From NCBI GenBank assembly GCA_021792095.1, contig JAJYVH010000001.1:573324-637323 (forward strand): a stretch of DNA of 64,000 nucleotides. The letters run 5' to 3'. Positions 29,126-37,655 of the stretch are shown piece after piece. The position numbers and the translations under genes are program-made. Below the pieces are notes generated by a model. It was not told the origin of the DNA. It was given only the letters and a program-made list of their open reading frames with translations, and searched no databases. The first letter of the stretch is position 1; the number at the start of each line of letters is the position of its first letter. This DNA comes from Microcaldota archaeon. GTDB lineage: Archaea > Micrarchaeota > Micrarchaeia > Micrarchaeales > CABMGC01.

Positions 29126-29962
29126 TCAACTGCCGCGCTGCAGGTTTTCCTCCTTGAGCTTGAGGACATCTAGAGCCTTTCGCATCTCGTTCATTCCCCT
29201 AAGACACTCCTTTACCTGCTCTGTCGATGTAAATGCATAGTCGAAGTCAATATCGCCTTCGAAAAGGCGAGTATCGCCTTTTATGTGCGTGTGGCCATAC
29301 ACGTGTGCGTTGCCAGAAATCTGTGCGTTGCTATTAACTCGTGCGTCGCCAAAGACCCGTGCGTCACCATATATCTGTGCTTTATCCGAGACATATGCGT
29401 CGCCAAATACAAATGCATGGTCCCAGATCCGAGAGTCGCCAAAGACCCGTGCGTTACCATATATCCGTGCGTTTTCCCAGATCCGAGAGTCGCCAAAGAC
29501 CCGTGCGTTGTCAGAGACCTGTGCGTTGCCAAAGACCCGTGCGTTACCATATATCCGTGCGTTTTCCCAGATCCGAGAGTCGCCAAAGACCCCTGCGTCG
29601 CCAGAGACCCATGCATCGCCAAAGACCCATGCGTCGCCAGCGACCCGTGCGTTGTCAGAGACCTCTGCGTCGCCATAGATCCATGCGTTGTCATAGACCC
29701 GTGCGTCGCCAGAGACCCGTGCGTCGTCAGAGACCCGTGCGTCGCCAGAGACCCATGCTTTTGACGCAAAGTCCAGATTGCCTTCTTTCTCTATGAAACC
29801 GCCCACCTGCCCTCTCTTTACAGAACCAAAATCTTCAAGCGCCACTATCCTGTAAAGCTTGTGCCCGTTCGCAGCCGTTACTGTCTCCCCTGTGAAACCG
29901 AATTTTGTATTCTCTTTGCTCAGTTGCGGAAGCGTCGCCGTCTCGGCTTGTCTAATAGCCAT
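29126..29962 (-). CDS. Left-handed beta-helix-type hexapeptide-repeat protein
   Basis: ~30 tandem copies of (F/Y/S)GDA(R/W)V-like hexapeptides. Confidence 0.88.
   Translation of the reverse strand: MAIRQAETATLPQLSKENTKFGFTGETVTAANGHKLYRIVALEDFGSVKRGQVGGFIEKEGNLDFASKAWVSGDARVSDDARVSGDARVYDNAWIYGDAEVSDNARVAGDAWVFGDAWVSGDAGVFGDSRIWENARIYGNARVFGNAQVSDNARVFGDSRIWENARIYGNARVFGDSRIWDHAFVFGDAYVSDKAQIYGDARVFGDARVNSNAQISGNAHVYGHTHIKGDTRLFEGDIDFDYAFTSTEQVKECLRGMNEMRKALDVLKLKEENLQRGS
29281..29762 (-). repeat. Degenerate 18-bp tandem coding repeat, including two exact 65-bp copies (29438-29502 and 29528-29592)
   Basis: Direct reading of the sequence; copies 90 bp apart are identical over 65 bp. Confidence 0.9.
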
Positions 29963-30195: not shown

Positions 30196-31212
30196 ATGAC
30201 TGCAATTGCGATACCGATAGGCATGCCAAATGTGATAGAGGTAAGCGGTGCAAGGAAGAGCTTCAAGACCTACGAGACGCCGCGGTCCGGCTTCCTGGCA
30301 TCGCTCAGGAAGAAGCGCATAGTCAAGTATGCGCTGCGCGGCGTTTCGTTCGGGGTGAGGCAGGGCGAGATAGCCGCGCTCTTGGGCAAGAACGGGAGCG
30401 GCAAGTCCACGCTCATAAAGCTGCTCAGCGGCATACTGCACCCGGATGCGGGCACGGTGCGCGTGCTCGGCCTGGACCCTTGGAGCGAGAGGAGGAAGCT
30501 GACCAGCAGGATAGGCGTTGTCATGGGCGCCCACGGCCAGCTCTGGTGGGACCTGCCGGCTACTGACACGTTCAACCTTATGCGCGCCATATACAAGATA
30601 CCTGAGAGGCAGTTCCGCGAGAGGCTGGAATTCCTCACCAACATACTGGAGCTGAAGGGCGTGGTCAAGCGCCAAGTGCGCACCCTGTCGCTAGGCGAGC
30701 AGATGAAATGCAACTTCGTCGCCTCCGTATTGCACATGCCCGAGCTGGTCATACTGGACGAGCCCACGATAGGCGTGGACCTGCCTTCGAAGCAGGCGCT
30801 GCGCACTGCCATAGAGAGCATGCGCGACGAGCGGAAGACGACCTTCCTGATCACGACACACATAGTCGAGGACCTGGCTATGGCAGAGAAGATATTCGTG
30901 ATGGACCGCGGCAGGATAGTGTACGACGGCTCAAGGGAGAGCCTCGAGAGGTACTTCGGAGACAGGAGGGAAGTGAACATAGAGTTCGAGAGCGCCGGGG
31001 ACGTCAAGGCGTACACCCGATTCGGCAAGGTGCTCGAGCTGGAGAGCAACTACATTAAGCTCGAGGTAGAGCAGGCGCAGCTCAGGAACAGGGCGTTCAT
31101 CAATCTCCTTTCTTCGGAGAACGTGGTGGACTACTCTGTGATGGAGAGGGACCTCAAGCCCATACTGCTCCGGCTCTACGCGCAGCACGGCGGGAGGCGG
31201 GGGCATGTTTGA
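30196..31212 (+). CDS. ABC-2 type transporter ATP-binding protein
   Basis: Walker A GKNGSGKST, signature LSLGEQMKCN, Walker B LVILDEPTIGVD. Confidence 0.93.
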   Translation: MTAIAIPIGMPNVIEVSGARKSFKTYETPRSGFLASLRKKRIVKYALRGVSFGVRQGEIAALLGKNGSGKSTLIKLLSGILHPDAGTVRVLGLDPWSERRKLTSRIGVVMGAHGQLWWDLPATDTFNLMRAIYKIPERQFRERLEFLTNILELKGVVKRQVRTLSLGEQMKCNFVASVLHMPELVILDEPTIGVDLPSKQALRTAIESMRDERKTTFLITTHIVEDLAMAEKIFVMDRGRIVYDGSRESLERYFGDRREVNIEFESAGDVKAYTRFGKVLELESNYIKLEVEQAQLRNRAFINLLSSENVVDYSVMERDLKPILLRLYAQHGGRRGHV

Positions 31213-32011
31213 AGACGCGGGCAAGTACGCCGCTTTCTTCAAGATGGGGATCAAGGACGAGCTCGCATACGTAGGGGACGTGATAATAAGCCTAATACTC
31301 AGGATAGGCGCGCCGTTGGTGATGCTTGCGGTGTGGTACGCGATCTACCTAGCAAGCGGCACGGCCACGATAGGCGGCTTCAGCCTTTCACAGACATACT
31401 CGTACTTCTTCGCTGTTTCGCTCGTGGCCGTTTTCACTGTGCCCAGCGTGCTTTGGATGATCCAGGATGACATACAGGGAGGCGCCCTCGGCGCGAACCT
31501 CGTGAGGCCGGTCAACTATGTGCTCTCCACTATAGTAATGGACCTCTCGTGGGGCCTCCTGCAGGCAGCACTGATAGGCGTACCCATGGGGGTGCTGCTT
31601 GTGCTGCTGCTGCATATCGCGCTTTCGCCTATGTACCTGGCCCTTTTCGTCTCAGAGCTTGCTGTGGCGCTGCTGCTCATGTATGCGATAGAGATGCTCA
31701 TCGCCGCCCTTGCGATATACCTGACGTACATAAACAGCCTGTACAGCGCGATATACACTGCTATAGCGTTCATCAGCGGCATGACGCTGCCCCTCAACTT
31801 TTTCCCGCAGTGGGCAAGCGGCATACTGCAGTACGCCCTTCCGTTCCAGATATTGGCCTATACCCCTGCCGCAACATTCATAGGGGCCATAGCTGTGCCG
31901 CAGGCGCTGGAAAGCACCGCTGTGGCGCTCGCGTGGGCTCTGGCACTCTCGCTCGCCGCGGCGCTGTTCTGGAGGCACGCGATGAAGCGCATAACTATAG
32001 CGGGTGGTTGA
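31205..32011 (+). CDS. ABC-2 type transporter permease (DUF990-like)
   Basis: Six TM segments; overlaps ATPase stop; SGMTLPLNFFPQWASGILQYALPFQ. Confidence 0.82.
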   Translation: MFEDAGKYAAFFKMGIKDELAYVGDVIISLILRIGAPLVMLAVWYAIYLASGTATIGGFSLSQTYSYFFAVSLVAVFTVPSVLWMIQDDIQGGALGANLVRPVNYVLSTIVMDLSWGLLQAALIGVPMGVLLVLLLHIALSPMYLALFVSELAVALLLMYAIEMLIAALAIYLTYINSLYSAIYTAIAFISGMTLPLNFFPQWASGILQYALPFQILAYTPAATFIGAIAVPQALESTAVALAWALALSLAAALFWRHAMKRITIAGG

Positions 32012-32801
32012 TGTGTCTCTTGGGATAGCCGATGAGCTAAGGTACCTGGTTGTGAGCCAGTACTACACCATGAAAGCGTATCTGACCTACAGGGTGCGCT
32101 TTTTGGCCTCGCTGCTTTCGACTGGTGTGGGCTTCGCGACACAGATACTGGCAATAACTGTGATATACACAGTGTCCTCGGGCGTACCCGGCTGGAGCTA
32201 CCTGCAGCTGCTCTTCCTGAGCTTTCTCTCTTCCCTAACGTTCACTTTCCTGGGCTATTTCAACATCTACAGCCTCCCGGGCATGCTGAGGCGCGGGCGT
32301 TATGATGGATTCTTCAGCAAGCCCGTGAGCATGGAGGCGCTCTTCTTCTCTCCGCCTTCGAATGTTGGCATGCCGATCGGGATCGTTTTTTCAGCTGTCC
32401 TGCTCGCTTACGTGGCTTCGTTGCTTGGCCTATCCTGGATGTGGCTGCTTATGTTCCTGCCCCTCTACCTGCTCGGGCTTATCGCGCTCCTGTTCCTGGT
32501 TACTGTGGTCGCGGTGCTCGCCTACCTCTTCGTGAAGAGCGGAAACTTCATAAACAATGTGCTGGAGCTGCTCAGCACCACTTCGAAGTATCCGTTGAAC
32601 ATCTATGGCATATTCCCGCAGCTGCTGCTCTCCATACTCCTGCCAGTGGGTATAGCCACGTACTACCCGGCCGAACTGCTGCTCGGAAGGATCGGCATTC
32701 CTGTCTATGCCGGCATCCTTCTCTTCTCTGCGGCCGTGATCATAGTCTCGCGCTACCTGATCCACAAGCTGATGGAGCGCTATACAGGAGGCGGCGGCTA
32801 G
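32004..32801 (+). CDS. ABC-2 type transporter permease (second subunit)
   Basis: Six TM segments; LRRGRYDGFFSKPVS motif; overlapping reading frames in the operon. Confidence 0.82.
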   Translation: MVDVSLGIADELRYLVVSQYYTMKAYLTYRVRFLASLLSTGVGFATQILAITVIYTVSSGVPGWSYLQLLFLSFLSSLTFTFLGYFNIYSLPGMLRRGRYDGFFSKPVSMEALFFSPPSNVGMPIGIVFSAVLLAYVASLLGLSWMWLLMFLPLYLLGLIALLFLVTVVAVLAYLFVKSGNFINNVLELLSTTSKYPLNIYGIFPQLLLSILLPVGIATYYPAELLLGRIGIPVYAGILLFSAAVIIVSRYLIHKLMERYTGGGG

Positions 32802-33660: not shown

Positions 33661-33688
33661 AGATTTAGTCTTGAGGAATGCAAAGGAG
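33661..33688 (+). other. 5' half of pre-16S processing stem (BHB-like)
   Basis: AGATTTAGTCTTGAGGA-ATGC-AA-AGGAG complementary to 35234-35262. Confidence 0.75.
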
Positions 33689-33720: not shown

Positions 33721-35203
33721 ATACCAGTCGATGCTGCTGGAGGACACTGCTATCAGATTTCGACAGCCATGCAAGTTTGCTCACCGGCTTCGGTGGGCGG
33801 CGTACGGCTCAGTAACGCGTAGTCAATCTACCCCAAGGAGGGGCATAACGTTGGGAAACTGACGCTAATATCACATAGGCCAGGGGCTCTGGAATGGAAT
33901 CCTGGCCCAAAACGGGCGCGAATTGCAGCGCCGCGGCCTTGGGATGAGACTGCGTCGGATCAGGCAGATGGCGGGGTAACGGCCCACCATACCTTTGACC
34001 CGTAGGGGCTGTGGAAGCAGAAGCCCCGAGAAGGGCACTGAGACAAGGGCCCTAGCGCTACGGCGTGCAGCAGGCGCGAAAACTCTACAATGCGCGGAAG
34101 CGTGATAGGGGGAGTCTGAGTGGCGCACTTCGGTGCGCCTTTTGCCAAGTCCAAACAGCTTGGCGAATAAGTGCTGGGTAAGACCGGTGGCAGCCGCCAC
34201 GGTAATACCGGCGGCACGAGTGGTGTCCGCTATTATTGGGCTTAAAGGGCCAGTAGCCGGTCCGAACCGTCCCGGGTGAAATGTCAATGCTCAACATTGG
34301 CGCTGGCTCGGGATACCTTTGGGCTAGGGAGCGGGAGAGGTCAGGGGTACTTATGGGGTAGGGGTAAAATCCTGTAATCCTATAAGGACCACCGGTGGCG
34401 AAGGCGCCTGACCAGAACGCGTCCGACGGTGAGTGGCGAAGGCTAGGAGAACGAATCGGATTAGATACCCGAGTAGCCCTAGCAGTAAATGATGCAGACT
34501 CTGGTGTTGCGTCAGTTTTTGGCGCAGTACCGTAGGGAAACTGATAAGTCTGCCGCCTGGGGAGTACGGCCGCAAGGTTGAAACTTAAAGCAATTGGCGG
34601 GGGAGCACCACAAGGGGTGGATGCTGCGGTTTAATTGAATTCAACGTCAGAAATATTACCTGGAGCGACGGCAGGATGAAGGCCAGACTAAAGATCTTGC
34701 CTTACGAGCCGAGAGGTGGTGCATGGTGACCGTCAGCTCGTGCTGTGAAGTGTCCGGTTAAGTCCGGGAACGAGCGAGACCTTCGCTGACAGTTGCAACC
34801 GGTGCAGAGATGCGCCGGGCACTCTGTTGGGACCGCCTCCGTTTAAGGAGGAGGAAGGAGAAGGCGACGATACGTCAGTATGCCCCGAATCTCCAGGGCT
34901 ACACGCGGCATACAGAGGCTGCTACAATGGGCTGCGACCCCGAAAGGGGAAGCCAATCCCCCAAAAGCAGTCAAAGTTCGGATTGAGGGCTGGAACTCGC
35001 CCTCATGAAGCTGGAATCCCTAGTAATCGCTTGTCACTAACGAGCGGTGAATGTGTCCCCGCTCCTTGCACACACCGCCTGTCAAATCACCCAAGCGAGG
35101 TTTTAGTGAGGCAGTGCCGTATGGCGCTTTCGAACTAAAGTTTTGTGAGGAGGGTTAAGTCATAACAAGGTATCCGTAGGGGAACCTGCGGATAGATCAC
35201 CTC
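33721..35203 (+). rRNA. 16S ribosomal RNA (archaeal, highly divergent, no intron)
   Basis: 5' ATACCAGTCGATGCTGCTGGAGGACACTGCTATC aligns ungapped to archaeal 16S 5' end; ATTAGATACCC, AAACTTAAAGCAATTGGCGGGGG, CACACACCGCCTGTCA and 3' GGAACCTGCGGATAGATCACCTC. Confidence 0.97.
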
Positions 35204-35233
35204 GAATGTGTATCGTGCATCGCGCGGCTCGCG

Positions 35234-35262
35234 CTCCTGCATAAGTCCTCAAGGCTAAATCT
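35234..35262 (+). other. 3' half of pre-16S processing stem (BHB-like)
   Basis: CTCCT-GCAT-AAG-TCCTCAAGGCTAAATCT complementary to 33661-33688. Confidence 0.75.
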
Positions 35263-36267: not shown

Positions 36268-36618
36268 GTGCTTGCTGGTATAAGAAGGGTGTACGATAAG
36301 CGCAGCGTGACGGACGGCAGGCGCGTCCTTGTGGACAGGCTTTGGCCGAGGGGCATAAAGAAGGGCACGCAGAGCGTTGACCTTTGGATGCGCGACGTGG
36401 CCCCCAGCACTGAGCTCAGGAAGTGGTTCTCCCACGACCCGGAGAAGTGGCCGGAGTTCAGGGAAAGGTACAGGCACGAGCTCAGCGGGAGCAAGGCGCT
36501 GGCCGAGCTCGTGGGCATGGCAAAACGGCAGACAGTGACGCTGATTTATGCGGCCAAGGACACGGAGCACAACGATGCGGTAGTGCTCGCAGAGCTGATG
36601 AGGGAGAAGGGAGCTTAG
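36268..36618 (+). CDS. DUF488 family protein
   Basis: IRRVYDKRSVTDGRRVLVDRLWPRGIKKGTQSVDLWMRDVAPSTELRKWF...HDPEKWPEFRERYRHEL. Confidence 0.93.
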   Translation: MLAGIRRVYDKRSVTDGRRVLVDRLWPRGIKKGTQSVDLWMRDVAPSTELRKWFSHDPEKWPEFRERYRHELSGSKALAELVGMAKRQTVTLIYAAKDTEHNDAVVLAELMREKGA

Positions 36619-37184
36619 AACTCTATCCTTTTGATCTCTACCTTGGAGATCGGCGCGCTCTCGCCCAGCTTTGTGATCCCCTCGCCCTGCAGCTCGCCCG
36701 ATATGAGCGACTTGAGAAGCTCCTCCCTGCTCCTCGCCGCCGCGTAGCCTGCGACGAACGCGCTCGCATTCTTCCTTATGACCGCCTTTGTCCTGGCCGG
36801 CACCTTGGACTGCGTGGTTATGAGTAGCTTGAATGTTATTGCCTTGCCTTCCTTGTCGTTCACCCTGTCGTGCGTGTACACCACGTTGCTGTGCCTCCTG
36901 ACCAGGGAGTGGAGGTAGCTGTACTGCTGCTCAAGGTACGCTATGCTCGTGTTTGCTATGTTGCCGCTGGCGTCGGTCACGCGGAGGCCCACCACGCTGA
37001 AGGAGTGGTTCGGGTTGTGCGTTATCCACGAAAGGTTGACCTTCATTATCCTGCCTACCATGCTCTTGTCGTCCGCGGCAGGCACGCTGCCTATCACCTC
37101 CCCGGAGATGACCTTAGGCGGGTAAACCTCGAACCATTTCTTGAGCTTCCACTTGTCAACGCTTTTCTGGGTAGTAGTCGCCAT
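36615..37184 (-). CDS. rps3ae: Ribosomal protein S3Ae (S1e)
   Basis: KKWFEVYPPKVISGEVIGSVPAADDKSMVGRIMKVNLSWI... Confidence 0.92.
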   Translation of the reverse strand: MATTTQKSVDKWKLKKWFEVYPPKVISGEVIGSVPAADDKSMVGRIMKVNLSWITHNPNHSFSVVGLRVTDASGNIANTSIAYLEQQYSYLHSLVRRHSNVVYTHDRVNDKEGKAITFKLLITTQSKVPARTKAVIRKNASAFVAGYAAARSREELLKSLISGELQGEGITKLGESAPISKVEIKRIEF

Positions 37185-37190
37185 GTGTAA

Positions 37191-37655
37191 TCACCTGCCC
37201 CTTATCCTGAGCTCCGCCTGCGCGGGGTCGTACTTCCAGTCCACAGGCAGCTTGCCCGTGCTCTTGTAGTACTTGCTCAGCCTCCATATCTTGCTCTCCA
37301 CGCGCTGCAGCCTTGTCTTGTTGTGGATGTCTCCGTTGTTCGAAGTGAGGTGCTTCCGCATGCTCACCGCCTTGGCCATGAGGTCTAGCAGGTCGTACGG
37401 TATGTCGCTCCTCACGCCCTTCTCCTCCAGGTATGCCGTTAGCCTCTTGCCCAGGATCTGCTTCAGGTCCTTGGCCTGCATGTCCTTCTTCAGCCTCTCG
37501 CCTATGAGCGCAGGCTTGGTCTCCTGCTTCGCGTAAGCGATTATGGCCTGCTCCACCGCTTCCTTGTCAACGCCAGCGTTCGCGTCGCTACCCAACGCCT
37601 TCCTGGACTTGGATTTTCCCTGCCTTCTAGTGTGTAGTCTTGCCATTGGGCTCAC
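37191..37655 (-). CDS. rps15: Ribosomal protein S15
   Basis: MARLHTRRQGKSKSRK...DIHNKTRLQRVESKIWRLSKYYKSTGKLPVDWKYDP. Confidence 0.95.
   Translation of the reverse strand: MSPMARLHTRRQGKSKSRKALGSDANAGVDKEAVEQAIIAYAKQETKPALIGERLKKDMQAKDLKQILGKRLTAYLEEKGVRSDIPYDLLDLMAKAVSMRKHLTSNNGDIHNKTRLQRVESKIWRLSKYYKSTGKLPVDWKYDPAQAELRIRGR

Follow-up and report, generated by a model that had tools for sequence, protein, structure and literature searches.

The U1406·U1495 pair at the top of h44 has been called universally conserved, the sole exception named being the trypanosomatid mitochondrial SSU rRNA (PMC3101183), in which U·U has become C1406-G1495. Changes at U1406 lower the susceptibility to 4,6-linked aminoglycosides (PMC3101183), and an engineered C1406-G1495 pair was reported to leave drug MIC almost unchanged (PMC3140962). 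Closer to the archaeon studied here, introns in related 16S genes (PMC5498576) and primer mismatches in DPANN 16S genes (PMC8407392) have already been reported. A literature search, with subscription papers outside its reach, found no paper describing the 16S signatures given below in Micrarchaeota.

The window, the whole stretch of 64,000 nucleotides that was analysed, contains one intron-free 16S gene. Its match to the archaeal SSU covariance model RF01959 is full length (positions 1-1478 of 1478, 1375.6 bits against a gathering score of 50). The original prediction had located the gene correctly and ended it at 35203, 2 nt short of the end given by the model. The gene is the only SSU match (G000:C1:607044-608528) in the single-contig genome of 771,545 bp; a second, canonical 16S was not found in the search of the whole contig. 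The 23S is a separate full-length gene, unlinked and approximately 236 kb from the 16S. The 16S flanks fold into a long stem, whose clearest portion is a 17-nt arm with 94% complementarity to its partner; judged by sequence and folding, this is the usual pre-16S processing stem. The features of the locus are listed below with E. coli numbering (reference sequence rrsH); those within the gene were assigned by alignment, and the paired positions also by pair counts.

33661-33677, forward strand: 5' arm of the predicted pre-16S processing stem, pairing with 35246-35262
33721-35205, forward strand: 16S (SSU) rRNA gene, intron-free, single copy
33729, forward strand: C14 (U14C), uncompensated
33733, forward strand: G18, central pseudoknot, pairs with C917
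33968, forward strand: A252, pairs with U274 (swapped from U-A)
33990, forward strand: U274, partner of A252
33999, forward strand: C283 (U283C)
34057, forward strand: G341 (h14), pairs with C348 (swapped from C-G)
34064, forward strand: C348 (h14), partner of G341
34190, forward strand: G518 (C518G), 530 loop
34199, forward strand: A527 (G527A), 530 loop, opposite C522, uncompensated
34591, forward strand: C917, central pseudoknot partner of G18
34638, forward strand: A963 (h31), pairs with U972 (swapped from G-C)
34647, forward strand: U972 (h31), partner of A963
34728, forward strand: G1060 (h34), pairs with C1197 (C-G in other families)
34873, forward strand: C1197 (h34), partner of G1060
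35080-35083, forward strand: top of h44, 5' strand, U1404 G1405 U1406 C1407; U1404 pairs with A1497, and U1406 is kept here
35159-35162, forward strand: top of h44, 3' strand, G1494 U1495 C1496 A1497
35246-35262, forward strand: 3' arm of the predicted pre-16S processing stem, pairing with 33661-33677

The gene ends in GATCACCTCG (35190-35205). Most of the order to which the window belongs has CACCTCA or CACCTCG, which makes the anti-Shine-Dalgarno core shorter by one C than the CACCTCC that predominates in other families. Downstream of the 16S, on the opposite strand, lie the genes for eS1 (S3Ae family) and uS15 (36615-37655, reverse strand). Elsewhere in the window a beta-solenoid protein (YdcK repeat/bactofilin-like; 29126-29962, reverse strand) adjoins an ABC-2 type exporter operon (30196-32801).

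Comparison with the archaeal SSU rRNA (RF01959) delimits what is unusual. The window shares with it the full length, the secondary structure and the decoding bases A1408, A1492, A1493 and G530, but swaps the pairs 18/917, 252/274, 341/348, 963/972, 1060/1197 and 1404/1497 and carries an unpaired A527 and C14. Alignment to rrsH places C18G, G917C, C518G, G527A, C1404U, G1497A and U1393C (35069) where the original prediction had put them. All the changes it named are present, and its list overlooked the swapped pairs A252-U274, G341-C348, A963-U972 and G1060-C1197 and the single-site changes U14C and U283C.

The phylum was sampled by searching 301 genomes; 198 gave SSU matches, from which 142 16S stretches were extracted and aligned. 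Rows in which introns or breaks crossed the sites were dropped, 13 from the pair counts and 17 from the tree and the decoding-base counts. The pair counts given below cover 71 usable rows of families f1 (that of the window) and f2, and 55 rows of other families. The tree was built without the odd columns; it is a quick maximum-likelihood tree with several long branches, and the change counts given below rest on it. On this tree families f1 and f2 come together as a single clade (SH-aLRT 100); the window lies inside f1, grouped with rows of the same genus (SH-aLRT 99), and its nearest row is 94% identical. As f2 includes 16S contigs identical to the A_DKE (NZ_CP060530) and ARM-1 (AP024486) records, the clade is the ARMAN-2/Micrarchaeum order, here called Micrarchaeales. 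G18-C917 and A527 are common to all its 16S genes (A_DKE, ARM-1 and the Mia14/ARMAN-2 relatives), and both are present in the window. C1406-G1495 is found in most of these relatives and 16S introns in many of them, whereas the window keeps U1406·U1495 and lacks an intron. The insertions are approximately 500 nt or longer and occur in A_DKE and ARM-1 among many others (L176-L210 and further rows). Five records labelled 'bacterium' or 'Marsarchaeota' (L012, L053, L055, L065 and L076) also carry a Micrarchaeales 16S, and their public bin names look wrong.

The central pseudoknot provides the clearest case of an exchanged pair. Positions 18/917 are G-C in 75/75 16S genes of f1 and f2; the remaining families have C-G, apart from f7-f9 and f12. 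In f7-f9 the G18-C917 pair occurs together with G19-C916, and in f12 G19-C916 occurs alone; the double swap of the former and the single swap of the latter (L173, L115, L085 and L183) form an independent series of swaps within this helix of the pseudoknot. Once intron-misaligned rows are left out, no mixed 18/917 state is seen among the 142 16S stretches of the phylum, and when column 18 is compared with all 818 variable alignment columns, 917 comes out as its best Watson-Crick partner (score 1.000). The predicted flip to G18-C917 is thus real and its positions are assigned correctly. Searching 85,462 species genomes for a C917 preceded by G or T at 916 yielded 82 stretches, of which 80 were examined. 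All but two of these (78/80) best match f1 or f2. The two outside Micrarchaeales are from Heimdallarchaeota BWSM_123 (L024) and Armatimonadetes CG06 (L071), and both show the same G18-C917 swap, of independent origin. Every C917 match with a readable 5' end has G18, 56 as read by script and 4 (L007, L012, L059 and L071) by alignment or from identical copies. A single origin within the phylum for all G18-C917 pairs was rejected (p-AU 0.002). Together with the two genomes outside the phylum, this implies four or more origins of the swap, spread over two domains. Such recurrence is strong evolutionary evidence that it is the pairing that is kept and not the identity of the bases.

At the top of h44 the same strictness is observed. 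The U-A pair proposed for 1404/1497 is confirmed, and of the 71 usable rows 55 have U-A here and 16 have C-G, with no mixed pair; a tree built without these columns requires at least ten changes between the two states. Column 1404 has 1497 as its best Watson-Crick partner among the 818 variable columns (score 1.000), so that the covariation anticipated for both 18/917 and 1404/1497 is found. The swaps named by the original prediction stand, but its list of paired changes was incomplete, as it overlooked those at 1405/1496 and the fact that most of the clade no longer has U1406·U1495. Positions 1405/1496 are G-C in 62 rows and A-U in 9, the latter seen only alongside U-A at 1404 and C-G at 1406. 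Positions 1406/1495 are C-G in 60 rows, U·U in 10 (the window included) and G-C in 1, that is, Watson-Crick in 61/71; a single origin of the Watson-Crick state is compatible with the tree (p-AU 0.18). Outside the order, the three phyla sampled here for this pair have U·U throughout (55/55 phylum rows, 30/30 Asgard and 30/30 Armatimonadota genomes). The replacement seen in 60/71 Micrarchaeales is the same as that of the trypanosomatid mitochondrion, although there it is found in an organellar, highly reduced rRNA and here in the main cellular ribosome. Heimdallarchaeota BWSM_123 differs from the order in having a normal C1404-G1497, G1405-C1496 and U1406·U1495. Not every claimed change is a deviation: U1393C, which places G923 opposite C1393, is the ordinary archaeal state, present in 55/55 phylum rows of other families, and was rejected as such. 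The bases G530, C1054, C1402, C1403, A1408, A1492, A1493 and U1498 are unchanged in the window and in 71/71 rows, so the codon-reading bases are retained. The base adjoining the wobble position, C1400, is U in several genomes of the phylum, L176, L189, L199 and L204 (also in L086, L107 and L185), with at least five changes on the tree.

For each tested pair except 1406/1495 the known partner is also the best Watson-Crick partner among the 818 variable columns; 1406/1495 is exempt because its ancestral state is not Watson-Crick. The 252/274 pair shows at least nine changes on the tree and is 100% Watson-Crick. U283C occurs in 71/71 members of the order and U14C in 70/71. In the 530 loop both predicted deviations are real. 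G527A occurs in 71/71 members and in 0/55 rows outside, and is uncompensated: the canonical C522-G527 pair is absent and C522·A527 stands in its place in the window as in the entire order, at a conserved position that does not decide membership in the archaeal SSU. C518G, seen in 69/71 members, is not specific; it is shared with families f4 and f6 and was rejected as a marker of the clade. The PGVRY loop of ribosomal protein uS12, which in ribosome structures adjoins the 530 loop, has become PG(L/M)KY in the order (R to K in 32/35; V to L, M, I or W in 35/35). The uS12 proteins of the order (L260-L294) also have a lower Pfam score than those of most other families. In 23S H69 no order-specific change was found: UAACUCUGA is present in 30/31 members of the order (UAACUCUAA in one) and in 13/13 others.

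What kind of RNA is this? Taken alone, the window would leave room for a sequencing or assembly error or a chimera. A further 70 genomes, drawn from many assemblies, show the same changes, among them the complete genomes of A_DKE (L045) and ARM-1 (L011), and this state shared across independent assemblies refutes an artifact, to which we assign a negligible probability. A decaying or duplicated pseudogene, which the unusual bases at conserved sites and the unlinked 23S might suggest, is equally implausible: the gene is the sole SSU copy in its genome, it scores as a full-length match, its pairing is strict, it is flanked by a processing stem, and the unlinked 23S is itself a separate full-length gene. 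The argument of the original prediction that the paired changes mark a functional RNA rather than errors is borne out, since they are common to the whole order, keep Watson-Crick pairing, and have independent counterparts in one Asgard archaeon and one bacterium. Across the order as a whole, rare pair swaps affect h11, h14, h31, h34, the upper end of h44 and the central pseudoknot, and Watson-Crick pairing is almost always maintained. We therefore regard a single functional 16S, whose deviations would represent compensated drift along a fast-evolving lineage, as the probable account. Slightly harmful changes at these sites would have been fixed in a fast-evolving symbiont lineage, and a match on the opposite strand would quickly have followed each fixed change, selection presumably acting on pairing and not on base identity. 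Decoding would stay normal, with small adjustments such as that of the uS12 loop beside the 530 loop.

Pairing alone does not explain everything, as the changes of G527 and U14 have no visible compensation, and the alteration of many near-universal sites on one stem branch could reflect selection rather than drift. The decoding centre might have been remodelled adaptively, through a concerted change of h44, the 530 loop and uS12 that would have altered codon-anticodon monitoring or the response to 2-deoxystreptamine drugs. The loss of U1406·U1495 in 61/71 rows, G527A throughout the order with G518 in 69/71, the shifted uS12 loop in the same clade and the aminoglycoside effect of U1406 changes (PMC3101183) are all consistent with this. 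We consider it unlikely: the directly decoding bases are all unchanged, the h44 partner H69 has no order-specific change, the swaps extend to h11, h14, h31 and h34, mostly distant from the codon, and engineered C1406-G1495 hardly affected drug MIC (PMC3140962). The related proposition that a whole cellular order functionally remodelled its decoding centre (Watson-Crick 1406/1495 with G527A and the uS12 loop), so that fidelity or drug response would differ measurably, is doubtful, if a shade more conceivable. Were the 530-loop change an adaptation to acid, C522·A527 might be a protonated A+·C wobble; the combination is present in 71/71 members, and cultured relatives come from acid sites, but related sequences have also been noted outside acid settings (PMC5498576), and we hold this reading to be very improbable. 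Compensated drift of a functional 16S remains our preferred reading.

The changes also bear on detection. In silico, the window mismatches A21F at 5 positions, 340F, 515F (Parada) and 1492R at 2 each, and 806R, 926R and 1391R at 1 each; Arch349F has 0 mismatches. Of the order's members, 69/71 mismatch 515F at 2 positions and 71/71 mismatch 926R at one or more; the mismatches number 0-4 for 1391R and 3-7 for A21F. The predicted mismatches (515F, 926R, 1391R and A21F) and under-detection hold at this level, and the finding is a refinement, since mismatches in DPANN were already published. Because the changes cost primer sites, the order is probably under-counted in amplicon surveys, and they explain at the level of sequence why Micrarchaeales are missed or diluted by common 16S primers.

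Micrarchaeales, for which co-cultures exist, provide natural cellular counter-examples to 16S base identities treated as universal, namely C18-G917, C1404-G1497 and U1406·U1495. That the decoding-site pair 1404/1497 has to form is cleanly supported, on evolutionary grounds, by its repeated alternation between C-G and U-A. In these ribosomes what the ribosome needs, the formed pair, can be told apart from what is mere habit, the particular base.
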